DNA of 64,000 bases, taken from contig JAJPJQ010000027.1 in the NCBI GenBank assembly GCA_021324155.1, positions 1 to 64,000 of the forward strand, read 5' to 3'. Below the pieces are notes generated by a model. It had not been told where the DNA came from, ran no database searches, and worked only from the letters and a program-made list of their open reading frames with translations. Made by a program: the position numbers and the translations under genes. This document shows, piece by piece, positions 2,714-44,799 of this stretch (the first letter of the stretch is position 1; every line of letters begins with the position of its first letter). Source of the DNA: Pseudomonadota bacterium (GTDB lineage: Bacteria; Desulfobacterota; Binatia; UBA9968).

Positions 2714-3907
2714 ATGCTGAAAAAAGGCTACCGCTACATTTCCGGCGATTCTCACCTGGAAATCGATACGAAACACTGGACCGGCCGCGTTCCCGCTCGT
2801 TGGCGCGAACAGGCGCCGCGCCTCGTGCACCAGCCGGACGGCAGCGACGCCTGGGCGATTAACAACAAGATCGCGCGTGCGGCCGCCGCAGCGGATCTTT
2901 ACGGCGGCAAAGGACGCGATCAGTATGTTCCCTTCGGCGCCAGGTACGAAGGCACGCCGGGGACGGGCAGCGCGGAGCAGCGGCTGCGGGAGCAGGATCA
3001 AGACGGCATCGACGCCGAAGTTCTGTTTCCCTCGCAGCAAGGCGGACCCAAGCTCTGGCGCCGCATCGAGGACGACGACGCTTATAAGTCGGTCGTCCGC
3101 GCGTATAACGGCTGGCTTGCTGAAGAATATTGCGCCGTCGATCCCCGCCGCCTGATCGGCGTTGGAATTCTGCCGTTGACGCACGATGTTCAGGACACAA
3201 TCGGCGAGATCGAATACTGCGCGAAAGCCGGACTCAAGACGGTTCTTCTGCAGGGATTTCCCAGCGGCCTGCCGTATCCTTCGGCGGATGACGACCGCTT
3301 TTGGTCCGCCGCGCTCGACCTGAACATGCCGGTGAGCGTTCACGTCGATCTCGACCGCTCCGGCGACCGCGCCGGTCCCTTGCTCCGCTTTCCACGCGAG
3401 CCGGAGGATATTATGGACAAGCTCGTTCCCGGACTCGTCGATCAGGTGGCGCGCTTCGGCCCGGTGCGCGGCAACGGCGCGATCCCAGCCGTACAGTGGG
3501 TTCTATCGGGGCTCTTCGACCGGTTTCCGAAACTGAAAATTCTTTTCGCGGAAAATCAGATCGGCTGGATTCCATTTTTTCTCCAGGGCGCCGACGTGCG
3601 CTACGACCGCCACTATCATTGGGCGCAGCGGCTGCTCGGTTTCAAACCGCTGCGCCGTGCGCCGAGCGAAATCATCCGCGAGCACTACTTCTGGGGTTTT
3701 CAATTCGACCGCGTCGGCGTCGAGCTGCGCCACAAGATCAACGTCGATCGGCTCATCTGGGGCTCCGACTTTCCGCACCAGGAATCCGACTGGCCCGATT
3801 CGCTCGGCGTGATCGAGAGAAATTTCGCGGGCGTGCCCGAAGACGAGAAACACAAGATGGTCTGCGGCAACGCCGTCGACTTTTTCCGGCTGAGCGGTTC
3901 AAATTAA
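2714..3907 (+). CDS. Amidohydrolase-2 family metal-dependent hydrolase/decarboxylase
   Basis: The 397-residue protein has the amidohydrolase-2 (ACMSD/gamma-resorcylate decarboxylase-like) TIM-barrel pattern. An N-terminal metal motif DSH occurs at residues 12-14. A central VHVDLD strand carries His, a RFPKLKILFAENQIGWIP segment follows, and a C-terminal WGSDFPHQESDWPDS holds the catalytic Asp. The canonical D-x-H-x-H start is altered (DSHLEID). Known relatives decarboxylate or hydrolyse carboxylated aromatics with a Zn or Mn centre. A Shine-Dalgarno-like AGGAAAGG precedes the ATG. There is no signal peptide, so it is cytoplasmic. A second family member lies at 54947-56059. The substrate is unknown. 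Confidence 0.85.
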   Translation: MLKKGYRYISGDSHLEIDTKHWTGRVPARWREQAPRLVHQPDGSDAWAINNKIARAAAAADLYGGKGRDQYVPFGARYEGTPGTGSAEQRLREQDQDGIDAEVLFPSQQGGPKLWRRIEDDDAYKSVVRAYNGWLAEEYCAVDPRRLIGVGILPLTHDVQDTIGEIEYCAKAGLKTVLLQGFPSGLPYPSADDDRFWSAALDLNMPVSVHVDLDRSGDRAGPLLRFPREPEDIMDKLVPGLVDQVARFGPVRGNGAIPAVQWVLSGLFDRFPKLKILFAENQIGWIPFFLQGADVRYDRHYHWAQRLLGFKPLRRAPSEIIREHYFWGFQFDRVGVELRHKINVDRLIWGSDFPHQESDWPDSLGVIERNFAGVPEDEKHKMVCGNAVDFFRLSGSN

Positions 3908-3922
3908 ATCGTTTTCATCGGG

Positions 3923-6406: not shown

Positions 6407-6431
6407 CATGCGGATTTTCGGCCGTTAGTCT
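6403..6431 (+). promoter_or_regulatory. Putative sigma-70 promoter for the GNAT gene
   Basis: TTGACA (6403-6408) and TAGTCT (6426-6431) are separated by exactly 17 bases. The -35 box overlaps the comEC stop codon. A transcript would begin near 6438, just before the 20-bp palindrome at 6441-6460. Confidence 0.5.
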
Positions 6432-6440
6432 CCGCATCAT

Positions 6441-6460
6441 GCGCCGGCGCGCGCCGGCGC
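6441..6460. repeat. Perfect 20-bp GC palindrome at the GNAT transcription start
   Basis: GCGCCGGCGC occurs twice in tandem (6441-6450 and 6451-6460), which makes a perfect 20-bp palindrome. It lies between the predicted -10 box and the start codon at 6470, so it could be an operator or a 5' leader hairpin that limits translation. No matching regulator is identified. Confidence 0.55.
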
Positions 6461-6469
6461 GCGTTATCG

Positions 6470-7003
6470 ATGATCCCGCCCGAAGTTATCGAGACTGCAC
6501 GCCTCCGTCTCTGCAGCGCGTGGGAGAGCGACGCTGAAGAAGTGTTCGCCGCGTATGCGCAGGACCGGGATGCGACCCGCTATCTAGCGTGGCGCCCGAC
6601 CGGCAAGATCGAGGACACGCGCCAGCACCTTCGCCTCACCGTCCGGCAGCGTTCCGACGGCACAGCGCTTCAATGGGTGATTCGCCGAAAAGAAGACGGC
6701 CGACTCATGGGTACGATCGGCGGCCGCGTCGACGGCCACAAGGTCGAGCTCGGATACGTGCTGGCCAAGGCATTTTGGAACTCCGGCTACATGACGGAGG
6801 CGGTGCGCGCCGTCGTCGAATGGGCGCTCCGCGAGGCCGATATCTTCCGCGTCTGGGCGGTGTGCGACGTCGACAATCCGGCGTCGGCGCGCGTCATGGA
6901 AAAGGCGGGGATGAAGCGCGAGGGACTCCTGCGCCGCTGGTCGATCCATCCGACCATCGGCCCCGAGCCGCGTGACTGCTACTGCTACGCAATCACGAAG
7001 TAA
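6470..7003 (+). CDS. GNAT family N-acetyltransferase (RimJ/RimL-like)
   Basis: The 177-residue protein begins ETARLRLCSAWESDAEEVFAAY in the RimJ/RimL manner. It carries LMGTIGGRVDGHKVELGYVL, then the acetyl-CoA site region FWNSGYMTEAVRAVVEWAL, and ends with the ARVMEKAGMKREGLLRRW block typical of this subfamily. Such enzymes transfer acetyl groups from acetyl-CoA to protein N-termini or small amines. The acceptor cannot be told. It has its own predicted promoter and is convergent with the TPR gene; the two stop codons are adjacent. Confidence 0.88.
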   Translation: MIPPEVIETARLRLCSAWESDAEEVFAAYAQDRDATRYLAWRPTGKIEDTRQHLRLTVRQRSDGTALQWVIRRKEDGRLMGTIGGRVDGHKVELGYVLAKAFWNSGYMTEAVRAVVEWALREADIFRVWAVCDVDNPASARVMEKAGMKREGLLRRWSIHPTIGPEPRDCYCYAITK

Positions 7004-7012
7004 TTACTTCGT
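6995..7012. repeat. 18-bp perfect palindrome containing both convergent stop codons
   Basis: ACGAAGTAATTACTTCGT at 6995-7012 is its own reverse complement. The plus-strand TAA (7001-7003) ends the GNAT gene and the minus-strand TAA (7004-7006) ends the TPR gene, so both C-termini are written by one palindrome. It may fold as a weak bidirectional 3' end. Confidence 0.55.
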
Positions 7013-7753
7013 CGATGCCATCCGCTGAAGCTCGATGCGAGCACCCTCGTACTCGACGAATTTCGTCACATTGGTCGCGAGCGCGGCCTTGAACATCTTG
7101 GCCGCTTCGGCTTTCTTGCCTTCGATTAGCAGCTGCTCGCCGATATAAAAATTCGTCTCGCACTGCTTCTCGCGCCGGCGCTTGGGATCGGAATCGTTTG
7201 CCGCCTTGAGCAGCTCCTGTTGATTTATGTTGCCGAGATAGTACGCGAGAATGATGCCCGGCCACTGGTTCAAATCGACCTCTCTAGAGACACTCCGGAC
7301 AATGTCTTTCGCGTCGTTTTCGCCGACGCGAGAGCGCGCGATATAAATCCAGAGCATCGCATAAACGTCGTCGCGCCTGAGTTCGAGCGAGTCGGCGAAG
7401 TTCCGCGCCGCCCGCGAGAAATCGCCGACGAAAAAGCGCGCGAAGCCCAACGTCTGGTGCGCCTGGGGTAACGTCGGGTCGAGATTGCCCGCTTCCGTGA
7501 AATCCTCGATCGCGCGCTTGTAGTCCTTCTTATCCATCCAGATCGTGCCGCGGTAATAATACATTTGGGCGAGATTTCGTTTCGTGAGCTCGCCGGACCG
7601 CATGGCACGCTCGCACGCGGGCAGAGCTTTTTCGGCATTAAAAGACTCGGGTTTGGTATCTTCGTAGCAATCCTGCGCGTCTTCGTTCCATTGCGCAAAA
7701 GCGGGAGCGCTAAGCGCAAGCAGAACAACGACCGGCCCTAACCGTCGTAGCAT
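7004..7753 (-). CDS. Secreted tetratricopeptide repeat protein
   Basis: The 249-residue protein starts with a Sec signal peptide (MLRRLGPVVVLLALSAPAFA, cleaved before QWN). It then carries three to four TPR-like helical pairs, for example MYYYRGTIWMDKKDYKRAIEDF and PQAHQTLGFARFFVGDFSRAARNF. TPR proteins are scaffolds; no catalytic motif is present. A GGAGG lies upstream of the ATG. It stands alone, divergent from the DUF5666-like gene. Its partner is unknown. Confidence 0.82.
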   Translation of the reverse strand: MLRRLGPVVVLLALSAPAFAQWNEDAQDCYEDTKPESFNAEKALPACERAMRSGELTKRNLAQMYYYRGTIWMDKKDYKRAIEDFTEAGNLDPTLPQAHQTLGFARFFVGDFSRAARNFADSLELRRDDVYAMLWIYIARSRVGENDAKDIVRSVSREVDLNQWPGIILAYYLGNINQQELLKAANDSDPKRRREKQCETNFYIGEQLLIEGKKAEAAKMFKAALATNVTKFVEYEGARIELQRMASTK

Positions 7754-7786
7754 CGGAAAGCCTCCATTGTTAATTTAAAGACCCCC

Positions 7787-7816
7787 ATCATAAAGTATCG
7801 TTTCATCAAAATCCAA
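7787..7816 (-). promoter_or_regulatory. Possible promoter of the TPR gene
   Basis: On the minus strand TTGGAT (7811-7816) and TATGAT (7787-7792) are 18 bases apart, about 34 bases before the start codon at 7753. The -10 box is good and the -35 box is weak. Confidence 0.35.
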
Positions 7817-7971
7817 ACCTCAGACCGATCAGCCGTGAAGGTCGGCTCGGGTGACGGAAAACGGTAAGCCGTCGCCGATTCGCGCACCATAGTGGCGGGC
7901 GGAACGTTCCCTGATGAACCAAGTGCGACCACGACGCTGAAACTCACTCCGGTACGCCCACCCAATCCCTA

Positions 7972-7987
7972 TTGGCACCCGGCTTGC
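7972..7987 (+). promoter_or_regulatory. Sigma-54-type (-24/-12) promoter
   Basis: TTGGCACCCGGCTTGC matches the RpoN consensus TGGCAC-N5-TTGC, with the invariant GG (7974-7975) and GC (7986-7987) 12 bases apart. It lies about 67 bases upstream of the DUF5666-like start codon, which leaves room for a leader with its AGGAGG. No enhancer-binding activator is in the window. Confidence 0.5.
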
Positions 7988-8053
7988 GTTAGCGTCTGAA
8001 GCCTACAACGGGCATCGATGCCGGTCATTGAGCAACGATGCGATAACTAGGAG

Positions 8054-9088
8054 GTGTGGATGTTTCGTAAATACATCGGAATCTTTGTCGTAGCGCTTGC
8101 GGTGCTGATTACCGGGCAAGCCGATGCCAAGGGCAAGAAGGGGCAAACCACGGTGCAGGGTACCGTTTATGCGGTCGACGTGAGCGGCGGCACCGTAACG
8201 CTGCAATCGAACGACGGCACGCTCACGGCGCTGAACATCGTCCGCAGCAGCAAGCTTAAACGCAACAATAAGAAGGTGACCTTGATGGGCCTCGTCTTGG
8301 GCGATAACGCGACGGCGCAGTATGATGCCTCGAACAACACCAAGCAGCTGACCGCGACCGGCGCTATCGTATCGACGCTTTCCGGCGCCGTCGTCGGGGT
8401 AAAATCCGGAACCGGCGTCGTCCAACTCGACAGGGGAAGCTTTGGCACCAACGCGCATACCCGTATTATTCGCAATGGCGAGGTGACCACGCTCGGCACG
8501 CTGACAGGCCGCGACCACGTCGTCGCACACGTCAAGCAGGGCAGCTCGCAGTCGCACGGGACGCAATCCGAGGGCGACGGCACCGCGATCGACGTCCAGG
8601 TCGAGGGACCGGAAGAATGCGAGATCGAAGGGACGATCACGCAGATTGATCTTGATGCCAACACCGTTACGATCAGTTCCGAGTACGATGACTGGGGCGT
8701 GACCGTCAATGTGACGCCCGACACGATCATCGAAGTCGAAGGCATCGAGACGCCGACGATCGCCGATCTCGCCGTCGGCCAGTACGTCGAGGCCGTTTAC
8801 GCCTCCGACACACAGGACGCCTTCCGCATTGAAGTGCAGAACGAGGAAGAGGAAGGCTACGCCGAAGGCCCGATTACGGCGATCGACCCCGTCGCCGGCA
8901 CGATCACGATCGATTGCTACGGCTCGCCGGTCACGCTCTTCGTCACCGCGAGCACGAAGATCGAAAAGAACGACGACGTGGCGGGATTCGGCGATCTCCA
9001 GGTCGGCGACGAAGGCATGGCCGAATACAACACGACGACCATGATCGCTAAGGAAATCGAAGTTGAATCTGCCGAGGATGAGGACTGA
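8054..9088 (+). CDS. Secreted DUF5666-like repeat protein
   Basis: The 344-residue protein has a signal peptide (MFRKYIGIFVVALAVLITGQADA) and then at least three beta-rich repeats of the type seen in DUF5666/OB-like proteins. Examples are VQGTVYAVDVSGGTVTLQS near 35, IEGTITQIDLDANTVTISS near 190 and AEGPITAIDPVAGTITID near 273. Each is followed by an LxVGxxVxAxY-like strand. It ends in an acidic tail (VESAEDED). The role is unknown; such proteins are exported to the periplasm or surface. A strong AGGAGG precedes the ATG, a sigma-54-like promoter lies upstream and a hairpin terminator follows. Confidence 0.75.
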   Translation: MWMFRKYIGIFVVALAVLITGQADAKGKKGQTTVQGTVYAVDVSGGTVTLQSNDGTLTALNIVRSSKLKRNNKKVTLMGLVLGDNATAQYDASNNTKQLTATGAIVSTLSGAVVGVKSGTGVVQLDRGSFGTNAHTRIIRNGEVTTLGTLTGRDHVVAHVKQGSSQSHGTQSEGDGTAIDVQVEGPEECEIEGTITQIDLDANTVTISSEYDDWGVTVNVTPDTIIEVEGIETPTIADLAVGQYVEAVYASDTQDAFRIEVQNEEEEGYAEGPITAIDPVAGTITIDCYGSPVTLFVTASTKIEKNDDVAGFGDLQVGDEGMAEYNTTTMIAKEIEVESAEDED

Positions 9089-23662: not shown

Positions 23663-24442
23663 TTACAGCTTGATGCCTTTGTACCTTCTGTAGATGCCGT
23701 CGTAGAAGGTCGTCATCATTTGCACGGAGACGCGCGAGCAGTATTCGAGCGGCCAGCCGGCGCGCTCCTGCCCGTAGCCGTCCATCAGCGCGGCCTCGAG
23801 GATGCGCTGGTTGGTGCCACCATGCTCTTCGCTGAGGTCCGCTTCCTCGTGGATCTTGAAGTACTCCATCTGCTCTTTGCTGAGCCCGTACTTCGGTAGC
23901 CCTGCGCGGTAGTCCGCCGCAATGTGGCCGAAGATCTCCTCTTCGAGGTGAATCGCGTAGCACTCCGCGAGCGGCACGTCGATCCACGAGCGCACGAAGA
24001 AATCGACCAGGCCTCGCGCCTCCGGGATCAGCTCGCATTCGATCATCTCTTCCTTGCTTACGCCGAGCGCGGCGCCGAGCTTCAAGAGCACGCGCGCATG
24101 TCCGCCGAGGCCGGGCGTCGTGAACTCCTCGCCGATTTTCTGCGCGACCATGTCCTCGAGCTCGGGATGTCTTTTGAAGAACCCCACGAACTGGTGATAG
24201 ACGGTCGCCATGCCGGTGTTCACCTCGACGGCGAAGGCGTGCCAGTTCTTGACCCAGAACTGGAGATGGCCTTTTTCCAGCGTCCCAGCGCGCAGCTCGC
24301 GAAAATACGGATGGTTGCGGATCTCTTTTTCGTACGTGTCGAGCACGATCTGACGAAGAGCGGCAACTTTAGCTTTTGCTTCCTCTTGTGTCATTTTGAT
24401 ATGTTCGCTCATCTGGTGGAACCTATCGAAAGAGATTTCCAT
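23663..24442 (-). CDS. TenA/PqqC-like iron-containing redox enzyme (heme-oxygenase-like diiron oxidase)
   Basis: I choose the ATG at 24442 (AAGGGA 11 bases upstream), which gives 259 residues. The helical protein has EEFTTPGLGGH at 105-115 (candidate ligands Glu105 and His115, spacing x9 as in SznF), then AIHLEEEIFGH (Glu167-169) and FKIHEEADLSEEH (His198, Asp202, with Glu205 at the place usually held by His). Relatives include PqqC-like and SznF/CADD-like oxidases that use O2 on amino acids or fatty acids. It is divergent from the binding protein at 24500 with 57 bases between. It is more distant from the four paralogues at 38.5-42.4 kb. Confidence 0.8.
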   Translation of the reverse strand: MEISFDRFHQMSEHIKMTQEEAKAKVAALRQIVLDTYEKEIRNHPYFRELRAGTLEKGHLQFWVKNWHAFAVEVNTGMATVYHQFVGFFKRHPELEDMVAQKIGEEFTTPGLGGHARVLLKLGAALGVSKEEMIECELIPEARGLVDFFVRSWIDVPLAECYAIHLEEEIFGHIAADYRAGLPKYGLSKEQMEYFKIHEEADLSEEHGGTNQRILEAALMDGYGQERAGWPLEYCSRVSVQMMTTFYDGIYRRYKGIKL

Positions 24443-24499: not shown

Positions 24500-25462
24500 A
24501 TGCGACAACTGTGGATTTTACTCGGCATTGCGCTTTTCGCGCTCACCCCGGCGCCGGCCGGCGCGCAGAAGCTCGAGCGCGCGCTGCTGACGCACTCGAG
24601 CGAGAGCATCAGCATCGCGCCGCTGCTCTACGGCATCGAAAAAGGACTCTATAAAAAGGAAGGCGTCGACCTCCAGTTCCGCATCCTGCGCGGCGATCTC
24701 GCGATCAGCGCGATGGTGAGCAGCCGCGATGTCGATTACATCTACGGCGCGGGCACGGCGTTTCTCGCGGCGGTGCGCGGCGCGCCGGTGAAGATCCTCT
24801 CGCACGATTTCAAGAGCGTGCTGTTTTATTTCATGGGACAGCCGGGCAAGTCCGCCAAGGACTTGAAAGGCAAGAAGGTCGCCATCAGCTCCATCGGCGG
24901 GACCGGCTTTGCGTCGACACGCGCCGTGTTGAAGGCGATGGGCCTCGATCCGGATAAGGACGTGACCTACATCGTGATCGGGGCCGCGTCGGTTCGCATG
25001 GCGGCGATGGAGGCGGGCTCGGTCGAAGGCGCGATCATGCCGGTGCCTTGGAATTTCCGCATGCGCCAGAAGGGATTCAAGGAGTTGATGTTCGCGGGGA
25101 ATGTAATGCAGCAGCCGCTCACCGGCATCGCCACGACGAAGGAGAAGGTCGAGAAGAATCCCGAACAAGTAAAAAAGGTGCTGCGGGGCTTCCTGCGCGC
25201 ACTGCGCGCGATGCGCCAGGAGAAGAAAGACGTGATCGAGTTCATCGGCAGGAAGTTCAGCCTAGACCCGGCGACGGCCGAGGAGACCTATAAGGTCGTG
25301 CTCCAGACGCTGAGCGAAGACGGCACGGTGAGCCAAGAGGCGCTGGAAGATCTGATGCAGCAGGTGAAGAAGGAGACCGGCGTGACCCGAGACATTTCGG
25401 TAAACGATATCGTCGATTACCGGTTGCTGCGCGAAGTGGCCAAGGAAGGCATCAAAAACTAA
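24500..25462 (+). CDS. NMT1/THI5-like ABC substrate-binding protein
   Basis: The 320-residue protein has a signal peptide (MRQLWILLGIALFALTPAPAGA). The binding-protein core follows: LLYGIEKGLYKKEGVDLQFR, then VRGAPVKILSHDFKSVLFYF and SAKDLKGKKVAISSIGGTGF. It is the first gene of the 21-kb plus-strand run and is 10 bases upstream of a molybdenum hydroxylase subunit, which suggests that it binds that enzyme's substrate or precursor. AAGAGGAGAG precedes the ATG. Confidence 0.85.
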   Translation: MRQLWILLGIALFALTPAPAGAQKLERALLTHSSESISIAPLLYGIEKGLYKKEGVDLQFRILRGDLAISAMVSSRDVDYIYGAGTAFLAAVRGAPVKILSHDFKSVLFYFMGQPGKSAKDLKGKKVAISSIGGTGFASTRAVLKAMGLDPDKDVTYIVIGAASVRMAAMEAGSVEGAIMPVPWNFRMRQKGFKELMFAGNVMQQPLTGIATTKEKVEKNPEQVKKVLRGFLRALRAMRQEKKDVIEFIGRKFSLDPATAEETYKVVLQTLSEDGTVSQEALEDLMQQVKKETGVTRDISVNDIVDYRLLREVAKEGIKN

Positions 25463-36134: not shown

Positions 36135-37097
36135 ATGCCAAGGAAAATCACTTTCGCCGGCGGCGACTACGACCGGACGCACGCGCTGATCGAAGGCACG
36201 ATTAAGCCCGAAGGGTTGGAGCTCGATTGGAAAGTCCTGCCGTACCACGACATCTGGACGCGCATGCTCAACCGCTACGAGTTTCACGCCTCCGAGCTGT
36301 CGCTGTCGTCGTATCTGATCGCGCGCACGATGGGAAAACCGCTGATCGCGATTCCCGTCTTCCCCGCGCGCGCTTTCCGCCACTCGTGCATTTTCGTCAA
36401 CGCGAAGAGCGGCATCAATGCGCCGCGCGACCTCATGGGCCGCAAAGTCGCCATTGCGGAGTTCCAGCAAACCGCGACCGTCTGGGTGCGCGGCGCTTTG
36501 CAGCACCATTACGGCGTCGATTTGCATAAAATACGCTGGTTCACGTGGGCGAAGAGCCGAATGGACATCGAGATGACCGGCGGCTTCGATCTCACGCAGC
36601 TGCCGCCCGGCAGCGCGCCGGACGAAATGCTCGCTGCGGGCGAGCTCGACGCGATGATCTGCGCCAACTTGTTCCCCTCGATGCTGAACGGGCGGCCGGA
36701 AATCCGGCGCCTATTCCTAAACTACCCGGAAGTCGAAGCGGAGTACTTCAAAAACACCGGCATCTTTCCGATTATGCATACCGTCGCGATGCGCGAGGAG
36801 CTCTGGAAAGAATCGCCCGAAATCGCCGTCAACCTTTTCAAAGCCTTCCAGCAGGCGAAGCTTCAGGCCTATGATCGGCTGAACGATCTCTCTCCTTACA
36901 AGATCAGCCTGGTCTGGTTTCGCGAGCCGCTACGGCAACAACGCGAGGTTCTGGGTGACGATGCCTGGCCGTACGGGCTCGCGAAGAACCACCACGTCGT
37001 CGAGGCGCTGATGGGATATCTTCACGAGCAGGGGCTCGCCTCGCACAAAATTCCCGTCGAGGAACTGTTTGCGCCCAATACGCATACCTTGTCCTGA
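36135..37097 (+). CDS. 4,5-dihydroxyphthalate decarboxylase-like protein (periplasmic-binding fold, no signal)
   Basis: The 320-residue protein starts MPRKITFAGGDYDRTHALIE and shows VLPYHDIWTRMLNRYEFHAS, SELSLSSYLIARTMGKPLIA, IPVFPARAFRHSCIFVN and AEFQQTATVWVRGALQHHYG. These are typical of the Pht5 4,5-dihydroxyphthalate decarboxylase group. It has the same two-lobed fold as binding proteins but no export signal, so it acts in the cytoplasm. In phthalate degraders the enzyme yields protocatechuate. Here the exact substrate is inferred only. It closes a series of three binding proteins. Confidence 0.82.
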   Translation: MPRKITFAGGDYDRTHALIEGTIKPEGLELDWKVLPYHDIWTRMLNRYEFHASELSLSSYLIARTMGKPLIAIPVFPARAFRHSCIFVNAKSGINAPRDLMGRKVAIAEFQQTATVWVRGALQHHYGVDLHKIRWFTWAKSRMDIEMTGGFDLTQLPPGSAPDEMLAAGELDAMICANLFPSMLNGRPEIRRLFLNYPEVEAEYFKNTGIFPIMHTVAMREELWKESPEIAVNLFKAFQQAKLQAYDRLNDLSPYKISLVWFREPLRQQREVLGDDAWPYGLAKNHHVVEALMGYLHEQGLASHKIPVEELFAPNTHTLS

Positions 37098-37184: not shown

Positions 37185-37523
37185 ATGGAAAAGCCGCGCA
37201 TTCGTCACATCGCCATCAACGTGCAGGACCGCGAGAAAACCGCCGCGTACTACAAAAAAGTGTTCAATATGGAAGAGAAGCACCGCGGCGAAAACGGCAC
37301 GATCTATCTTTCCGACGGCTTCGTCGACGTCGCGCTGATCAGCACGCCGCGCCATCCGTGGGGCATCAACCATTTCGGCTTCAAGGTCGACAGCGTGCCG
37401 GAGATGGAGCAGCGCGCCGATACGACGGCCGAGGCGAACACCTTCGGCGCGATCGCCGAGAGCTGGATCAAAGACCCCGAAGGCAATCGCGTCGACATCT
37501 CCGAGCATGGATGGCCGGTTTAG
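37185..37523 (+). CDS. VOC-superfamily (glyoxalase-like) protein
   Basis: The 112-residue protein is one vicinal-oxygen-chelate module: RIRHIAINVQDREKTAAYYK at the start, INHFGFKVDSVPEMEQRA in the middle and WIKDPEGNRVDISEHGW at the end. Candidate metal ligands are His7, His63 and Glu105 in a usual pattern. VOC proteins are small dioxygenases, isomerases or lyases. A perfect AAGGAGG lies 9 bases before the ATG. It precedes the duplicated oxygenase module. Confidence 0.8.
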   Translation: MEKPRIRHIAINVQDREKTAAYYKKVFNMEEKHRGENGTIYLSDGFVDVALISTPRHPWGINHFGFKVDSVPEMEQRADTTAEANTFGAIAESWIKDPEGNRVDISEHGWPV

Positions 37524-37565: not shown

Positions 37566-38519
37566 ATGATGCGCGAATTCGCTCTCATCTTTGCAATTGC
37601 GCTGCTCCTGTTACCAGGGAAGCTCGCGGCGCAGCCGAAGATGAAAGCGGCGTACGCCTCGATCAGCGCTAACTTCGCCGGCCTGTGGATGGCGAAGGAG
37701 ATCGGCGCGTTCGAGAAATACGGACTCGGCGCGGAGCTCGTTTACATCGCGTCGGGCAGCGTCACGGTGCAAGCGATGATGGGCGGGGACGTCCAGCTGG
37801 CGGTCGGCGCCAGCAACGCCGTGGTGAGCGCGATTCTACGCGGCGCGCCGCTGGTCGCGGTCGGCAGCGTGGCGAATCGCCCGGGAATGGTCTTGTGGGT
37901 ACAGCCCGAGATCACGCGCCCCGAGCAGCTTCAAGGAAAGGTGCTGGGGATTTCTCGATTCGGCTCGACGACGCACTTTTTGATGAACATGGTGCTGGAG
38001 AAATACGGTCTCAAGGACAAGGTCAAAATCCAGCCGCTCGGCGGCGTGCCCGAGATGGAGGCCGCTTTCGGCACGGGAATGATCGCCGGCGCGATTTTAT
38101 CGATCCGGCCCGCATCGAAGGCGCATATGCTCGTCGACCTTCCTGATCTCGGCATTCCCTACTCGATGAACCTCATGGCGGTGAAGCGCGATTATCTCAA
38201 ATCTTCGCCGAAGGCGGTCGAAGCAATCCTCAAGGCTTATATCGAAGGCATGTACGTTCTGAAAACCAGAAAAGAGATCGGGCAGAGAGTGCTCGCAAAG
38301 TACATGCGGCGCTCGCCCGATAGCGTTGCCGAGCCGTACGATTATGCCGTCAAGTATCTCGATACGGTTCCGGCCGTCGAACCCGCCACGATCCATACGG
38401 TCCTCAATTGGGAAGGCAAGGGTGACATGGCCGTCGACGGATTCTTCGACAACGCGCCTGTCGAGCGGCTCGTGAAAGACGGCTTCGTCGAGCGGCTGGC
38501 GAAGGAAAGGGGAAAGTGA
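37566..38519 (+). CDS. NMT1/THI5-like substrate-binding protein, copy A of the duplicated module
   Basis: The 317-residue protein has a signal peptide (MMREFALIFAIALLLLPGKL). Its core reads FAGLWMAKEIGAFEKYGLGA, VGASNAVVSAILRGAPLVAV, NRPGMVLWVQPEITRPEQLQ and GISRFGSTTHFLMNMVL. It is strongly similar to 39961-40938, especially the RPGMVLWVQP block and the ALGASNAVV ligand loop. Its TGA shares a base with the ATG of the first diiron oxidase, so both proteins are coupled in translation. Confidence 0.88.
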   Translation: MMREFALIFAIALLLLPGKLAAQPKMKAAYASISANFAGLWMAKEIGAFEKYGLGAELVYIASGSVTVQAMMGGDVQLAVGASNAVVSAILRGAPLVAVGSVANRPGMVLWVQPEITRPEQLQGKVLGISRFGSTTHFLMNMVLEKYGLKDKVKIQPLGGVPEMEAAFGTGMIAGAILSIRPASKAHMLVDLPDLGIPYSMNLMAVKRDYLKSSPKAVEAILKAYIEGMYVLKTRKEIGQRVLAKYMRRSPDSVAEPYDYAVKYLDTVPAVEPATIHTVLNWEGKGDMAVDGFFDNAPVERLVKDGFVERLAKERGK

Positions 38520-39226
38520 TGGACGCCGCCGGCTGGAGGCGGACTATCGGAGAGATGGTCCGCGAGAATATGCGCTCTCCGCAAGTCCAGTACTATTTCT
38601 CCGTCAAGACGACCGAGCCGCGCGCGCGGATGCTGCTGCAGCAGCTGGCGCTTTTTGTCCGCCACCGCCGCGATTGCTGGTCGTTCCTTTCCAGCAATTG
38701 TCCGGTAATGGCGGTCAAGCAGCAGATCCTTAAGCACGAGTTCGGCGAGGTCATTAAGGACGAATATACCGACCGCGGCCACCTCGACCTGCTCGTCCGG
38801 CAGGGAAGATTCATCGGACTCAGCGAGGACGAGGTGCTCAACCCGACGCCGATTGCGACGACGCTTGCGACACTGTACGGCTGGGGCTGGATCTGCCGGG
38901 AAAAACATTGGCTCCAAGGCATGGCGGCGCTGACTGTTACCGAATGGACCAACGACGACCGTCTGCTGGCGGACCAGGGCGGCGGTCACTCCAGCCGGAT
39001 GGCGCGGAAATGGATGGCCGAACTGGGTCTTACGATGGAGCAGCTGCCGCAGTTCAAAGTCCACGGCGCGGCGGACGAGGAGCACAGCGACATGTTTCTG
39101 CCTTTTCTCGCGGAGTACGCGACGGGCGCAAATGAACGTATCGCGCTCGACGGCGTTCGCGAATCGCTCGAGCTTTCCGCAATGTATCGCGAGGGCGTCG
39201 GTCGGGCTATGGAACAGCTGAAATAA
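38519..39226 (+). CDS. Heme-oxygenase-like diiron oxidase, paralogue 1
   Basis: I use the ATG at 38519 (TGATG overlap); a GTG at 38516 is possible. The 235-residue all-helical protein has Asp81-x6-His88, Glu142 (in LTVTEW) and His182-x3-Asp186-x2-His189 (VHGAADEEH). CADD/UndA/SznF-type oxidases use E-x6-H, E and H-x3-D-x2-H to hold two irons, so all six positions are filled, with Asp for the first Glu. TenA thiaminase Cys chemistry is not suggested. Known members cleave or hydroxylate amino acids or fatty acids with O2. There is no signal peptide; the substrate is probably linked to the coupled binding protein. Confidence 0.85.
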   Translation: MDAAGWRRTIGEMVRENMRSPQVQYYFSVKTTEPRARMLLQQLALFVRHRRDCWSFLSSNCPVMAVKQQILKHEFGEVIKDEYTDRGHLDLLVRQGRFIGLSEDEVLNPTPIATTLATLYGWGWICREKHWLQGMAALTVTEWTNDDRLLADQGGGHSSRMARKWMAELGLTMEQLPQFKVHGAADEEHSDMFLPFLAEYATGANERIALDGVRESLELSAMYREGVGRAMEQLK

Positions 39227-39248
39227 GAATCAACCGGAGGCAAGCAAA

Positions 39249-39953
39249 ATGAACGAACAGGGTTGGAGACAGGCGCTCGGAGAGCTGGCCCGCGAGACGA
39301 TGTCGTCGCCGGAGCTCGACCGCTACTATTCGATACCGATCACGCGGCCGCGCGCGCAGATCATCTTAAAACAGCTTTCGCTCTACGTGCGTCACCGCCG
39401 CGATTGCTGGGCATACGTCTCGGGCAATTGCCCGATTCTCGCCGTCAAGCAAAAGATCCTCGGCCATGAATACGAAGAGGTGATTCGCGATCAGCACTCC
39501 GAGCACGGCCATCTCGATTTGCTCATCCGCCAGGGGAAACCGATCGGCCTCACGGCCGACGACATCATACAGACCAAACCGATCGCCTCGACGATGGCGG
39601 TGCTTTACGCCTGGGGCTGGATGACGAAAAATAAGCCGTGGCTCGAAGGCTTGGCGTCGATGACGATCACGGAGTGGAACCAGGACGACCGACTGCTCGG
39701 CGATCAGGGCGGCGGTCACGCTTACAAGATGGGCCAGCGCTGGGTGGATCACCTCGGCATAACGTGGGACGATCTCCCCAACTGGCGCGCACACCGCGAG
39801 GCCGATAAAGAGCACAGCGACATGTTTCTCTCCGTGCTCGCAGAACACGCCGTCGGCGATAAAGAGGAGGCGGTGCTCAACGCGGCACGCGAGTCCGAGG
39901 CGCTCTACCGCGCGTATCAGGCCGGCATCGCGTCGGCAATGGAGGCCGTCTGA
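39249..39953 (+). CDS. Heme-oxygenase-like diiron oxidase, paralogue 2
   Basis: The 234-residue protein keeps the ligand set at the same positions as its neighbour: Asp81-x6-His88, Glu142 in MTITEW and His182-x3-Asp186-x2-His189 (AHREADKEH). It shares YVRHRRDCWAYVSGNCP near 46-62 and WNQDDRLLGDQGGGH near 144-157. The RHRRDCW and DDRLLxDxGGG blocks are specific to this group and may form the substrate channel. It follows paralogue 1 after 22 bases and precedes the second binding protein by 7 bases. An AACCGGAGG precedes the start. Confidence 0.85.
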   Translation: MNEQGWRQALGELARETMSSPELDRYYSIPITRPRAQIILKQLSLYVRHRRDCWAYVSGNCPILAVKQKILGHEYEEVIRDQHSEHGHLDLLIRQGKPIGLTADDIIQTKPIASTMAVLYAWGWMTKNKPWLEGLASMTITEWNQDDRLLGDQGGGHAYKMGQRWVDHLGITWDDLPNWRAHREADKEHSDMFLSVLAEHAVGDKEEAVLNAARESEALYRAYQAGIASAMEAV

Positions 39954-39960
39954 GAATCCG

Positions 39961-40938
39961 ATGATGCCGACGCGGATCAGGGTCTTCTCGCTGCTGCTCG
40001 CGGTAATACTGACCGCGCCGGCGGCGCGCTCTTTCGCTGCCGACGCGCCGAAAGAAAAGATCACCTTCGGCTACTCCGCGGTCAGCCCGACCATGGCGGG
40101 CGTGTGGATGGCGAAAGACATCGGCGCCTTCGAGAAGTACGGCCTCGACGCGCAGCTCATCTATATCGCCTCCGGCGCGGTCGTGATCCAGGCGCTGGTC
40201 GGGGGCAGCCTGAACGCCGCGCTCGGCGCGAGCAATGCGGTCGTCGCAGCGACGTTAAAAGGCGCGCCCATTCTCGCCGTCGGAAGCAACACGAGCCGGC
40301 CCGGCATGGTTCTGTGGGTGCAGCCCGACATTAGCCGCCCCGAGCAACTGGCCGGCAAGCGACTGGCGATTACGCGGTACGGCTCGTCGAGCGACTTCGT
40401 CACACGGCTGATCACGAAGAAGCTCAATCTTGACGGCAAGGTCGAGATTAGACAGTTCGGCGGAGTGGTCGAAGCCGACATGGGCTTTCGCGCCCACCAG
40501 GCCGAGGGGAGGGTCGCATCACAATCGCCGGCCCCGGGGGCGCGCGCGCTAGTAGACGCGGCCGAGCTCGGCATCCCGTATTCGATGAACCTCCTCGCCG
40601 TGAGCAACGAATATCTTAAAAAGTCGCCGGGAACTGTCGAGCGGATCATCAAGGCCTATATCGAAGGTATCGCCGCGCTTCGATCGAGAAAACAGCAAGC
40701 GCTACAAATGCTGGCGAAATACATGGGGCCGCGCGGCGGTGCGCCTGAGATGCACTATGAGTTCGTCACCAAGTATCTGGACGCCGTGCCGCGCGTTGAT
40801 CCGGCAGCCGTAGACACGATTTTAGAAATGGTCGGCCACTCCGGGCCGGTCAACGTCAAGCTTTACGACAACGCGATCATCGACAAACTCAAAGCCGAAG
40901 GCTTTTTCGACAAACTACAACAGGCAGGGGGCAAATAA
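39961..40938 (+). CDS. NMT1/THI5-like substrate-binding protein, copy B of the duplicated module
   Basis: The 325-residue paralogue of 37566-38519 has signal peptide about 1-27 (ending SFA). It matches copy A in MAGVWMAKDIGAFEKYGLDA, LGASNAVVAATLKGAPILAV, SRPGMVLWVQPDISRPEQLA and SMNLLAVSNEYLKKSPG. Its stop (TAA, 40936-40938) and the next ATG share one base. A stretch near residues 180-200 (RAHQAEGRVASQSPAPGARA) differs from copy A, so the ligand pocket edge has changed. Confidence 0.87.
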   Translation: MMPTRIRVFSLLLAVILTAPAARSFAADAPKEKITFGYSAVSPTMAGVWMAKDIGAFEKYGLDAQLIYIASGAVVIQALVGGSLNAALGASNAVVAATLKGAPILAVGSNTSRPGMVLWVQPDISRPEQLAGKRLAITRYGSSSDFVTRLITKKLNLDGKVEIRQFGGVVEADMGFRAHQAEGRVASQSPAPGARALVDAAELGIPYSMNLLAVSNEYLKKSPGTVERIIKAYIEGIAALRSRKQQALQMLAKYMGPRGGAPEMHYEFVTKYLDAVPRVDPAAVDTILEMVGHSGPVNVKLYDNAIIDKLKAEGFFDKLQQAGGK

Positions 40939-41648
40939 TGAAACAAGCCGTATGGCGTGAAACGCTCGGCGAGATGGTGCGCAAGTACATCCGCTCGCCC
41001 GCGCTCGAGCGCTATTTCGCTGTCAAGATGAACAAGCCGCGCGCCGCGGTGATGGTGACGCAGCAGAGCCTTTTCGTGCGGCATCGCCGTGATTGCTGGG
41101 CGAACGTCTCGGGAAACTGTCCAGTGCTCGCGATCAAACAGCGCATCCTCGAGCACGAATACGAAGAAATCATTCGCGACCAGTTCTCCGAATACGGCCA
41201 CCTCGCGCTGATCATCAAACAGGGACAGTCGGTCGGTCTTGCGCCCGAGGAGGTCATAGGAGCGAAGCCGCTTCCGTCGACGCTGGCGACGCTGTACGCG
41301 TGGGGCTGGATGACGCGCGAGAAAAGCTGGGTCGAGGCCCTCGCCGCGCTGACGATCACGGAGTGGTGCAACGACGATCGCCTGCTCGGCGACTTGGGCG
41401 GGGGACAATCGACGCGCATGGCGAAAAAATGGATGGAAGACATGGGCTTCACATGGAAGCAGATCCCGAATTTGGAGGCGCACAGTCAGGCCGACGAGAA
41501 GCACAGCGATATGTTCCTGCCGTTTCTCGAGAAGTATGCGACGGGCGAGAAGGAATCGCTCGCGCTTCAGGCGGCCCAGCAATCGCTTGATTTGAACCAG
41601 ATTTTCCGCGACGGCATCGCCGCCGCCCAAGAGCAAATTAAATTGTAA
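40938..41648 (+). CDS. Heme-oxygenase-like diiron oxidase, paralogue 3
   Basis: The 236-residue protein has Asp81-x6-His88, Glu142 (LTITEW) and His182-x3-Asp186-x2-His189 (AHSQADEKH). It is closest to paralogue 2 in FVRHRRDCWANVSGNCP and paralogue 1 in LPFLEKYATG-like sequence near the end. Gln replaces the last His of the QGGGH block (GDLGGGQ). It is coupled by a one-base overlap to binding-protein copy B, as paralogue 1 is to copy A. Confidence 0.85.
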   Translation: MKQAVWRETLGEMVRKYIRSPALERYFAVKMNKPRAAVMVTQQSLFVRHRRDCWANVSGNCPVLAIKQRILEHEYEEIIRDQFSEYGHLALIIKQGQSVGLAPEEVIGAKPLPSTLATLYAWGWMTREKSWVEALAALTITEWCNDDRLLGDLGGGQSTRMAKKWMEDMGFTWKQIPNLEAHSQADEKHSDMFLPFLEKYATGEKESLALQAAQQSLDLNQIFRDGIAAAQEQIKL

Positions 41649-41685
41649 TCTGATACCCTAGGGGACACGACATTTAGGAGGTCGT

Positions 41686-42372
41686 ATGAGCTACTGGCAA
41701 AAAGCGCGGGCGGAAATCGACGACACGATCAACCGGCATTTCGACACGCCGGAATACCGGCGGCTCTTCGGAGTCAAAATCACGCCGAAGCGCAATGAGG
41801 TCTTGGGTCGCCATTATCCGCATTACATCAAGAGCCGGCGCGACTGCTGGGCTGCGTCGATGGCGAAGGCGCCGCTCGACGTCAAGCGGTCCATCTGGGA
41901 GCACGAGAAAGACGAGCTCATCTACGACGAGCGGCTCGGCGCCGCGCACCTGACCGACGACGACATGTCGCGGGCGGTCGGCGAAGAGACACTGCTCCCG
42001 AGCGCGCGCGCGGCAATTTACAGCTGGCTGTATCTCTGCACGACGCGGTCGTGGATCGAGAGCCTGATGATCAATCATACGACCGAGCGCAAGAACAATT
42101 CAGAGCTCGTCAAGGGCGGCGGCTTCACGCAGCGCATGGCGATGAAGCAAGTCGCCGACCTCGTCGGCTCCGTCGATAACCTCGACAAAAATACCAAGGT
42201 GCATATGGTTGCCGACATCGACCATTCCAACATGTTCGAGTCGGTGTTCGAGCGCTACGTCACCGACGAGCGCATTGCACGCATGGTGGTCAGAGCGGCG
42301 AACGATTGTCTGGCGATCGACCGGGCCTATCGCAACGCACTCGCCGTCGGTATGATGGAAATCCCGGAGTAG
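41686..42372 (+). CDS. Heme-oxygenase-like diiron oxidase, divergent paralogue 4
   Basis: The 228-residue protein is clearly of the same family but more divergent: IKSRRDCWAASMAKAPLDVK near 48-67, Asp81-x6-His88, Glu134 (INHTTERKN) and His173-x3-Asp177-x2-His180 (VHMVADIDH). It has lost the conserved TEWxxDDRLL block but keeps all six metal positions. A perfect AGGAGG lies six bases before the ATG. It is second in the B half of the module, as paralogue 2 is in the A half. It is followed by cydA. Confidence 0.82.
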   Translation: MSYWQKARAEIDDTINRHFDTPEYRRLFGVKITPKRNEVLGRHYPHYIKSRRDCWAASMAKAPLDVKRSIWEHEKDELIYDERLGAAHLTDDDMSRAVGEETLLPSARAAIYSWLYLCTTRSWIESLMINHTTERKNNSELVKGGGFTQRMAMKQVADLVGSVDNLDKNTKVHMVADIDHSNMFESVFERYVTDERIARMVVRAANDCLAIDRAYRNALAVGMMEIPE

Positions 42373-42404: not shown

Positions 42405-43748
42405 ATGGACAGCGCGCTCGCCATTCATCGGCTGCATTTCGCGTTTACCGTAACCTACCACTATATCTTTCCCCAGCTCACGATGGGCCTTGCCCCGCTC
42501 ATTGTGATCTTCAAGTCGCTCGCGTTGTGGAAGGCGGACGAGCGTTATAACGGGGCGGCGCGGTTCTGGGCGAAAATATTCGCCGTCAATTTCCTTTTCG
42601 GCGTGATCACCGGGATTCCCATGGAGTTCCAGTTCGGCACGAACTGGGCGCGCTTCTCGCACTACGCCGGCGGGGTGATTGCTACGGCGCTCGCGATGGA
42701 AGGCGTGTTCGCGTTCTTCCTCGAATCGTCCTTTCTGGGTCTCTTTCTCTTCGGCGAGAAGCGCTTCGGCCAGCGAGTTCATTGGATCGCGGCATTCATG
42801 ATTTTTCTTGGCTCTTGGATTTCCGGTTTCTTCATCATTGTGACGAATGCCTGGATGCAGCATCCCGTCGGCTATACGCTCGACCCGGACGGGACGGCTC
42901 ACTTGACTAGCTTTTGGAGCCTGCTGTTCAACGAATGGGCGCTGTGGCAATACCTCCACACTATGAGCGGAGCCGTCATCACAGGCGCCTTTGTCATGGC
43001 CGCCGCCGGCGCATTTTATTTCCTGTCCGGGAAACAGCCGGAATACGGCCGCATGTTCCTGCGGCTGGGCGTAATCACCGGCGTCCTCGCGTCGGCGTTT
43101 CAATTGTGGCCGACGGGCGACATGAAGGGGCAGCTCGTCGCGCGACATCAGCCGGTGACACTCGCGGCGATGGAGGGACTGTTTCACACCGAGTCGGGCG
43201 CCGCCATCGTCATCCTCGGCCAGCCCGATCCCGATCGGCAAAAGTTGGACAACCCGCTCTTCGTGCCCAAGGCGCTGAGCTTTCTCACGCACCGGCGCTG
43301 GGAGGCGGAGGTAAAAGGATTGAGCGACTTTCCCCGCGAGCAATGGCCGGACAACATCCCGCTGCTCTATTACTGCTATCACATCATGGTCGGCCTCGGG
43401 ACGATCTTCATCGCGATCATGGTAGTTGCGGCGTGGCTTCTCTGGCGCGGCAACCTGTTCGAGAGCCGATGGATGCTCTGGGTGCTGATGCTGAGCTTCC
43501 CGTTCCCGTACATCGCGAACACGGCGGGCTGGATCACGGCGGAGATCGGGCGCCAGCCGTGGGTAGCCTACGGGCTCATGCGGACGGAGCATGGCTTTTC
43601 GTCGAACGTCTCGGCGAGCAATGGGCTTTTCACGCTGCTGGGCTTTATGGGCATGTACGCTTTGCTCGGCGTTTTGTTTGTGCTGCTCATCTGGCGCGAG
43701 GTTATGCACGGTCCGCAGCCCGTGGACATCGAGACGGTCCGGAACTGA
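42405..43748 (+). CDS. cydA: Cytochrome bd ubiquinol oxidase subunit I
   Basis: The ATG at 42405 is the true start: MDSALAIHRLHFAFTVTYHY places the heme b595 ligand His near residue 19, as in other CydA. The 447-residue protein has nine or so membrane segments, the GRQPWVAYGLMRT signature and a short Q-loop, as in cyanide-insensitive (CIO) forms rather than E. coli CydA. It transfers electrons from quinol to O2 with high affinity. The frame is open upstream but overlaps the preceding gene. Confidence 0.93.
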   Translation: MDSALAIHRLHFAFTVTYHYIFPQLTMGLAPLIVIFKSLALWKADERYNGAARFWAKIFAVNFLFGVITGIPMEFQFGTNWARFSHYAGGVIATALAMEGVFAFFLESSFLGLFLFGEKRFGQRVHWIAAFMIFLGSWISGFFIIVTNAWMQHPVGYTLDPDGTAHLTSFWSLLFNEWALWQYLHTMSGAVITGAFVMAAAGAFYFLSGKQPEYGRMFLRLGVITGVLASAFQLWPTGDMKGQLVARHQPVTLAAMEGLFHTESGAAIVILGQPDPDRQKLDNPLFVPKALSFLTHRRWEAEVKGLSDFPREQWPDNIPLLYYCYHIMVGLGTIFIAIMVVAAWLLWRGNLFESRWMLWVLMLSFPFPYIANTAGWITAEIGRQPWVAYGLMRTEHGFSSNVSASNGLFTLLGFMGMYALLGVLFVLLIWREVMHGPQPVDIETVRN

Positions 43749-43749
43749 A

Positions 43750-44799
43750 ATGGAAACCGTCTGGTTCATGCTCGTCGCCGGCATGGTGATCGCGTACGTC
43801 GTCCTCGACGGATTCGATCTCGGCGCCGGAGCCATCCACCTCTTCGCCGCGAAGAATCGGGCAGAGCGCGCGCAGATCCTCAAGGCGATCGGTCCCGTGT
43901 GGGACGGCAACGAAGTGTGGCTGATCGCCGCCGGCGGCGCGCTCTTTTTCGCTTTCCCGCGTCTTTACGCGTCGAGCTTCAGCGGTTTTTATCTTCCGCT
44001 GATGATCGTGCTCTGGCTCTTGATGTTGCGCGGCGTGGGCGTCGAGCTGCGTTCGCACGTGGAGGATCCGCTGTGGCACGCGCTTTTCGACTTCGTCTTT
44101 TTTGCCTCCAGCGCGCTTCTCGCCGTCTTTTTCGGCGCCGCGATCGGCAACGTCGTTCGCGGCGTGCCGCTCGACGCCGACGGTTATTTCTTCGCGGCGC
44201 TCTGGACCGACTTCACCGCAGGACCTGACGCCGGCATCCTCGATTGGTACACGCTGCTCACCGCCGCGCTGGCGCTCGCGGCGCTTATTGTCCACGGCTC
44301 ACATTACATAGCGCTTAAAACGCTCGGCGATGTCGAAGCCCGCGCTCGGCTGATCGCCGCCCGCGGCTGGCGTGCCCTGGTTTTGCTGACCGTCGCATCG
44401 CTGCCGGCAACGCTATACGTTCGTCCCGCGCTGTTGAATAATTTCTTCGCGCACCCGTGGGGCTGGATCATTCCAGCCGCAGCAGTCGCCGCCCTGGCCG
44501 TGATGCCGTATTTTCATCGTCGGAGGCGTGACCTCGCCGCGTTTCTATGCTCCGCGCTGTATCTCGCCGGCACAATCACCGGAGCGGCGTTCGCGCTCTA
44601 TCCCGTCGTGCTGCCGTCGAGCGGCGATCCTGCATACAGTCTGACCGTCTACAACTCGAAAGCCGGCTCTTACAGTATGAACGTTGGACTGGTTTGGTGG
44701 CTGCTGGGCATCACGCTTGCCGTTCTGTATTTCGTGATGGTCTATCGTCTCTTCCGCGGCAAGGTAGTGCTCGGCGAAGAAGGCGGATACGGCTCGTAG
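43750..44799 (+). CDS. cydB: Cytochrome bd ubiquinol oxidase subunit II
   Basis: The ATG at 43750 follows the cydA stop with one base between. The 349-residue protein starts METVWFMLVAGMVIAYVVLD and shows the family hallmark LDGFDLGAGAIHL and GPVWDGNEVWLIAAGGALFF, with about eight membrane segments. It forms the bd oxidase with CydA. No cydX, cydC or cydD is adjacent. Beside four O2-dependent oxidases it may serve respiration at low oxygen or lower free O2. Confidence 0.92.
   Translation: METVWFMLVAGMVIAYVVLDGFDLGAGAIHLFAAKNRAERAQILKAIGPVWDGNEVWLIAAGGALFFAFPRLYASSFSGFYLPLMIVLWLLMLRGVGVELRSHVEDPLWHALFDFVFFASSALLAVFFGAAIGNVVRGVPLDADGYFFAALWTDFTAGPDAGILDWYTLLTAALALAALIVHGSHYIALKTLGDVEARARLIAARGWRALVLLTVASLPATLYVRPALLNNFFAHPWGWIIPAAAVAALAVMPYFHRRRRDLAAFLCSALYLAGTITGAAFALYPVVLPSSGDPAYSLTVYNSKAGSYSMNVGLVWWLLGITLAVLYFVMVYRLFRGKVVLGEEGGYGS

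Follow-up and report, generated by a model that had tools for sequence, protein, structure and literature searches.

Thiamine-pyrimidine salvage by ThiXYZ, with ThiY as its binding protein, and TenA provides a described case in which an NMT1/THI5-like binding protein is encoded with an enzyme of the heme-oxygenase fold; TenA itself is without a dimetal site. Heme-oxygenase-like dimetal oxidases (HDOs) include UndA, BesC, CADD, SznF, HrmI, FlcD and PolF; according to PMC13108848, about a dozen of more than 10,000 predicted members have been characterised, and deorphanising the family is key. Another class of metalloenzymes, named amidohydrolase-related dinuclear oxygenases in PMC10811679, includes AibH1H2, which takes part in 2-aminoisobutyric acid (Aib) catabolism (PMC7782822). 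Here we describe an HDO gene cluster with linked substrate-binding protein (SBP) genes in a 64,000-nucleotide stretch of a Candidatus Binatia genome (GCA_021324155.1, contig JAJPJQ010000027.1). The whole stretch is referred to as the window; it is contig C29 of the genome (G000; 4.8 Mb, 53 contigs). The cluster is real, is conserved in relatives, and is undescribed as far as we have searched; all occurrences to date belong to one order of Candidatus Binatia. The initial annotation of the window knew of no described pathway that pairs THI5-like SBPs with HDOs, and our searches of the openly licensed PMC literature, on HDOs and on Binatota, turned up no title or opening of an abstract that describes the arrangement.

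Six open reading frames, all on the + strand between 37566 and 42372, follow one another in the order SBP-HDO-HDO-SBP-HDO-HDO, as first annotated, and are labelled here SBP1, HDO-A, HDO-B, SBP2, HDO-C and HDO-D. Both binding proteins are NMT1/THI5-like and match PF09084 (cut-off 20.5 bits), SBP1 (37566..38519) with 74.5 bits and SBP2 (39961..40938) with 57.5 bits; they are 47.3% identical, and the shared RPGMVLWVQP and GASNAVV motifs, from which they had been called paralogs, are present in each. HDO-A (38519..39226, with a GTG start possible at 38516), HDO-B (39249..39953) and HDO-C (40938..41648) match PF14518 (cut-off 28.9 bits) with 51.7, 36.3 and 44.3 bits. HDO-D (41686..42372) is divergent and scores 14.4 bits, under the cut-off; it is placed with the other HDOs because it is 31 to 34% identical to HDO-A, HDO-B and HDO-C and because of its modelled fold. 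Each SBP gene overlaps the HDO gene that follows it by one base, as had been noticed, with the junctions TGATG and TAATG; the SBP1/HDO-A overlap is of one base only if HDO-A begins at the ATG at 38519. Judged by eye, signal peptides are apparent on the SBPs, that of SBP1 being of the Sec type, and none is apparent on the HDOs. No permease-domain gene was found within 6 kb of the cluster, the nearest PF00528 matches on the contig being at 48383, 49238 and 62486, and an Rfam search of the window gave no match at gathering scores.

Structure prediction, which the initial annotation had proposed as a check, placed two of the four oxidases among the HDOs. The AlphaFold2 model of HDO-B (mean predicted local distance difference test score, pLDDT, 92.2) gave CtCADD as its top Foldseek match (E 3.3e-7), and VIA aligned it with SSO2700 (a protein with a TenA/THI-4 domain), CADD and PqqC at Z 22.6-23.6. 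The HDO-D model (pLDDT 89.6) matched PqqC (E 1.0e-4) and CtCADD (E 2.9e-4). The fold of HDO-A and HDO-C rests on their 52-54% identity to HDO-B. D81-x6-H88, a central Glu and H-x3-D-x2-H had been reported in all four oxidases, and this holds: three histidines and three carboxylates, the ligand set of HDOs, are conserved in HDO-A to HDO-D at the level of sequence. In HDO-B numbering these are D81, H88, E142, H182, D186 and H189, which are invariant in 11 of 11 sequences of the A/B/C type and have equivalents in all seven HDO-D sequences. A family profile alignment, read by eye, matches the six residues to those of chain 9pj4, a 4-aminobenzoate synthase, and is ungapped from D81 to H88; the window HDOs differ from 9pj4 in having Asp where it has its first Glu. 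They also have an invariant E77, four residues before D81. An earlier alignment had suggested E77 as the first ligand instead of D81; it was set aside, and D81 is retained for now, because the profile alignment pairs D81 with the Glu of 9pj4. By analogy with SznF, E77 might add a fourth carboxylate and give a site of three histidines and four carboxylates. HDO-A to HDO-D are probably metal-dependent oxidases with six candidate metal ligands. The HDO-B and HDO-D fold and the set of three histidines and three carboxylates are shared with the known HDOs; in contrast to these, the window HDOs are four paralogs in one gene run, which stands with genes for uptake-type binding proteins and for enzymes of a catabolic appearance. 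The window also holds a fifth, distant gene of the HDO family (23663-24442, - strand), divergent from an NMT1-type SBP gene (24500-25462, + strand).

The six genes had been described as a three-gene module repeated twice, and this description did not survive. Pairwise identities among the HDOs are 51.7% (A-B), 54.0% (A-C), 53.4% (B-C), 31.3% (B-D), 33.6% (A-D) and 32.3% (C-D), so that the two second oxidases, HDO-B and HDO-D, are among the least alike, and they fall in different ortholog groups. A tree of 68 HDOs resolves HDO-B (6 sequences), HDO-C (10) and HDO-D (15) as supported groups that include other genera, with HDO-D in a different deep branch; HDO-A is left unplaced, being one of 21 A/C-like sequences in a fork that stays open (support 84/90). 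The identities and the tree together rule out duplication of an SBP-HDO-HDO module. There is moderate support, from these sequence comparisons, for the view that any duplication was limited to an SBP-HDO pair, giving SBP1/HDO-A and SBP2/HDO-C.

Related HDOs were found in 25 of 58 genomes (E <= 1e-20), all of the same order; the remaining 23 genomes searched from the class gave no related HDO at that threshold. A profile of HDO-A, HDO-B and HDO-C, run against 395 genomes from the phylum at E <= 1e-25 with at most seven candidates scored per genome listed, found the window's own genome only, the other 394 giving none among the candidates scored. Scanning genome contigs with two peptide patterns, which distant relatives would escape, gave 33 loci in records titled Candidatus Binatia, Deltaproteobacteria or, for two loci, Syntrophobacter. 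All 33 are taken as Binatia, since several are the same contigs as known relatives. HDO-B had no match at E 1e-3 among plasmid records.

The SBP-HDO link is conserved in these relatives. SBP2 and HDO-C overlap by 1 or 4 bases in nine of ten loci, the window included; the remaining locus (L061) has no recognisable overlap. A FastTree phylogeny of 100 SBPs, which comprised relatives' SBPs from HDO loci only and part of the SBPs of the window genome, contains a clade of 24 members (support 1.0) to which SBP1 and SBP2 belong, and every member comes from an HDO-cluster locus. Of the 23 HDO-adjacent SBPs in the tree, 18 are members of this clade that directly adjoin an HDO. Three types can be told apart within the clade, SBP1, SBP2 and SBP3, the SBP2 type consisting of 10 sequences (support 1.0). 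The pairing first noticed in the window stands in relatives, with the exception of one family, f3, in which SBPs of the HDO-linked clade are absent from six of six loci; there, a gene for a TctC-type SBP (PF03401, tested on one member of the cluster) lies beside a VOC-superfamily gene in the same direction, as an 84-amino-acid fragment in one case. Searched against the PDB, SBP2 gave weak matches only (3qsl, THI5, SsuA, TauA and ThiY) and no ligand assignment. Downstream of HDO-D in the window, after 33 bp, are open reading frames that we read by eye as cydAB, for a cytochrome bd oxidase (42405-44799, + strand); they were not recognised in the relatives' loci that were read.

The units of one SBP and two HDOs do not stand alone; the conserved set is larger and includes a VOC protein, a GGT-like hydrolase, a dinuclear oxygenase pair and a third SBP. 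The VOC-superfamily protein of 112 amino acids, VOC112 (37185..37523, + strand; PF00903 32.2 bits, cut-off 20.6), is a member of the cluster that the initial annotation missed. For each of its 17 orthologs of at least 71% identity, a count that leaves out five sequences of 42-62% identity, the contig carries an HDO no more than 1.2 kb away, and all 17 are in HDO-bearing genomes. One relative (G011, locus L070) carries on a single contig an XDH-type gene, a TPP-enzyme pair, SBP3 and VOC112, followed by HDO-A, HDO-B, SBP2, HDO-C and HDO-D; in another (G017, L069), HDO-D is followed by two PF04909 genes, a second VOC gene, a further binding-protein gene and GGT, and then by the first part of a UbiD-type gene, where the contig stops. 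The window genome holds a similar set on a second contig, C41, where an XDH-type large subunit, a binding protein, a TPP-enzyme pair, SBP3, GGT, two PF04909 genes and VOC107 lie in one direction. Among 150 of 240 candidates scored, the only proteins of this genome with E <= 1e-50 to SBP2 are SBP2 itself, SBP1 and the SBP3 of C41; this ties C29 to C41 independently of the relatives, SBP3 being the only further close relative of SBP1 and SBP2 among those scored. The GGT-like protein of C41 exceeds the TIGR00066 cut-off (417.0 bits against 357.85), and it may be a cytosolic amide hydrolase, since no signal peptide is visible by eye in the f3 ortholog.

The two PF04909 proteins of C41 score 114.3 and 110.6 bits (cut-off 26.4), and their best PDB matches are DitZ and PtmU3 (1e-33 and 5.5e-31 for one, 3.2e-33 and 1e-25 for the other). 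The first protein keeps DxH, HxH, the E of FAETGLGW and DxxH in four of four sequences; in the second, the C-terminal DxxH is absent from all four. The ligands of AibH2 are Asp25, His27, His211, Glu265, Asp337 and His340 (PMC7782822), and the pair, mapped by motif, would have the pattern expected of a catalytic subunit (AibH2) and its partner (AibH1). Two adjacent PF04909 genes, one with and one without DxxH, are what it has in common with AibH1H2, PtmU3, SfbO and DitZ. AibH1H2 supplies a catabolic precedent; unlike it, the pair described here occurs with HDOs. No Rieske ferredoxin such as AibG was seen among the labelled genes of the loci read, although no search was aimed at it. Elsewhere in the window, at 2714-3907 (+ strand), is a PF04909-like protein (assigned by clustering) with DSH and DFPH, possibly a dinuclear oxygenase and not a hydrolase.

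A sister HDO operon in relatives (L090) encodes a DHDPS-type aldolase, an HDO, a bicupin, UbiD, a binding-protein-fold protein, a second UbiD and GST; the order is the same in L092 and L093 and partial in L094 and L099, the families having been tested on L090 only. The bicupin resembles gentisate and 5-aminosalicylate dioxygenases (279 and 291 bits, the cut-offs being 442 and 650), and the binding-protein-fold protein is presumably Pht5-like. This gene set favours catabolism and keeps aromatic acids among the possible substrates. The window genome retains a related HDO on contig C45 (L010) without these neighbours, and at 2952-8905 of locus L011, on contig C41, another HDO gene overlaps a bicupin gene by 14 bp and is followed on the same strand by UbiD, SBP and UbiD. 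Upstream of VOC112 in the window, at 36135-37097 (+ strand), is a binding-protein-fold protein with no visible signal peptide and weak PF12974 and PF09084 scores, below cut-off, which resembles the binding-protein-fold protein of the second HDO operon; it may be a cytosolic enzyme, a 4,5-dihydroxyphthalate-type decarboxylase.

Our best reading, to which we give about an even chance, is that the cluster forms one part of a pathway of aerobic catabolism in Candidatus Binatia, which acts on a scavenged compound. Exported SBP1, SBP2 and SBP3 would capture a small, probably carboxylate-bearing compound, which would enter through a permease encoded elsewhere. Capture outside, oxidation inside and import by a distant permease are suggested by the apparent signal peptides of the SBPs, by their absence from the HDOs and by the 6 kb around the cluster that hold no permease gene. 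Cytoplasmic HDOs would then use a dimetal centre bound by His and carboxylates, together with O2, to oxidise the compound and its successive products by desaturation, C-C cleavage or hydroxylation, with each HDO type performing its own step. VOC metalloproteins, the AibH1H2-like pair and the GGT-like amide hydrolase would carry the products on, with a UbiD-type decarboxylase in some relatives; it is the presence of several HDO types, the dinuclear oxygenase pair, VOC metalloproteins and an Ntn-type hydrolase that suggests stepwise oxidative breakdown. An amino-acid-like or an aromatic or unsaturated acid substrate fits best, and we make no choice between them; the former is suggested by known HDO preferences (PMC13108848) and by AibH1H2. 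The more specific proposal of a degradation pathway that uses two unrelated classes of dinuclear-metal oxygenase, four to five HDOs and the AibH1H2-like pair, with single HDOs genetically wired to cognate binding proteins of the periplasm, is put forward tentatively, at somewhat less than an even chance.

Several observations weigh against a catabolic pathway of this kind. Characterised HDOs act in natural-product and cofactor biosynthesis (PMC13108848), so a catabolic role is an extrapolation. The absence of a permease gene near the cluster counts here too, and no enzyme except GGT passes a curated model that names a substrate. The gene complement varies: of the 21 genomes that have HDO-D, 10 carry a GGT ortholog no more than 550 bp from it, a lower bound because several contigs end there, and the window genome has its GGT gene and dinuclear oxygenase pair away from the cluster, on C41. 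The SBP1/HDO overlap is found in the window only, five other SBP1-type loci having gaps of 11-107 bp. Finally, we compared what lies within five genes of HDOs and of control genes in the window genome, using 15 independent HDO loci drawn from 22 HDO genes in the regions read (one from a random region) rather than all 26 PF14518 matches in the genome (23 of them over the cut-off). Controls were 165 genes from 19 random regions, one of 20, with 8 genes, having been dropped, and p values were calculated from one gene per region. HDOs were no closer to UbiD than controls were (4/15 loci against 41/165).

The alternative that survives best, though we consider it unlikely, is biosynthesis: the HDOs would modify an amino acid to give a small molecule, such as a metal chelator, which is secreted and which the binding proteins recapture. 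It would agree with the natural-product roles of known HDOs, and a PF04909 oxygenase can also be biosynthetic, as is PtmU3, a beta-hydroxylase in diterpenoid biosynthesis (PMC7782822). However, no obvious assembly gene is present among the genes labelled or read, most neighbours being unlabelled and polyketide synthases and nonribosomal peptide synthetases not having been searched for; the genome shows a huge expansion of the uptake-type family from which the binding proteins come, and the relatives' neighbours include UbiD, XDH-type and TPP enzymes.

It is also rather improbable, in our judgment, that the SBPs are bystanders, placed next to the HDOs by chance or generic clustering and sharing no substrate with them. 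This explanation draws on the abundance of the family. The 4.8-Mb genome has at least 151 PF09084 matches (150 of 264 candidates scored), against 79 matches to the ABC permease domain PF00528 of all kinds in the whole genome, and of the 364 genes in 20 random regions of 20 kb, 28, or about one in 13, are NMT1-type SBPs. Very large binding-protein families in one genome are known from Rhodoplanes, with 434 TTT-family SBPs in an orphan binding-protein expansion (PMC5994714); here the family is NMT1/THI5, with one subfamily tied to one enzyme family. In the five-gene comparison, an NMT1-type SBP was present at 12 of the 15 HDO loci and near 77 of the 165 control genes (p 0.029, uncorrected). A bicupin was found at 5/15 loci against 11/165 controls (p 0.046, uncorrected), PF04909 at 2/15 against 15/165, DHDPS at 2/15 against 3/165, VOC at 1/15 against 10/165, and XDH at 1/15 against 16/165. 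An SBP directly adjoined the gene on the same strand for 6 of 22 HDOs and 41 of 335 control genes. Measured by position, with contigs of known length and the incomplete list of SBPs only, a listed PF09084 locus lay within 0.7, 1.5 and 3 kb of 4, 7 and 13 of the 22 HDOs, and of 5.9, 11 and 20.9% of random points. SBPs being so common in this genome, adjacency to an HDO is by itself weak evidence, and conservation in relatives is the stronger evidence for the link. There the two sides meet: the f3 loci, with an HDO cluster and no SBP of the linked clade, would suit bystanders, whereas the overlap of SBP2 with HDO-C in nine of ten loci, the monophyletic HDO-linked subfamily with its three close members in the genome (among the candidates scored), and the TctC-type gene that takes its place beside VOC112 in f3 argue for a functional connection.

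A role in thiamine-pyrimidine salvage, with a THI5-like SBP and a TenA-like enzyme acting as ThiY and TenA do, is very improbable. In its favour, the SBPs belong to NMT1/THI5, the weak matches of SBP2 in the PDB include THI5 and ThiY, and HDO-A and HDO-C fall just above the cut-off of 22 bits for PF03070 (TENA/THI-4), with 22.9 and 24.5 bits; HDO-B scores 15.5 and HDO-D has no match. Yet PF14518 scores are higher for all three, and the HDO ligand set is complete, unlike that of the heme-oxygenase-fold enzymes of thiamine metabolism, which are metal-independent (PMC13108848). The locus further differs from ThiXYZ/TenA in having no permease gene near and four dimetal-type enzymes, and the VOC, GGT and dinuclear oxygenase genes have no place in such a route. 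Among the substrates that the initial annotation had put forward, a thiamine-like compound is therefore disfavoured. Least probable of all is p-aminobenzoate synthesis by self-sacrificing, CADD-like HDOs, for although CADD is the closest solved structure to HDO-B by Foldseek, the TIGR04305 scores of HDO-A, HDO-B and HDO-C (25.9, 22.2 and 17.8 bits) are far from the cut-off of 200, HDO-D has no match, and the position of the amine-donating lysine, Lys152 in CADD (PMC11965152), seems to be His, Gln or Asn in the HDOs on a by-eye reading of a weak, gapped alignment.

We know of no earlier HDO-based catabolic pathway; if the proposal of two oxygenase classes is true, this would be the first, and the substrate of an HDO could be read from its binding protein. 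Where a binding-protein gene overlaps a single HDO gene, ligand screens of the SBP offer a direct route to HDO substrates. Confirmation would take HDO chemistry beyond biosynthesis, into the degradation of environmental compounds by an uncultured class.

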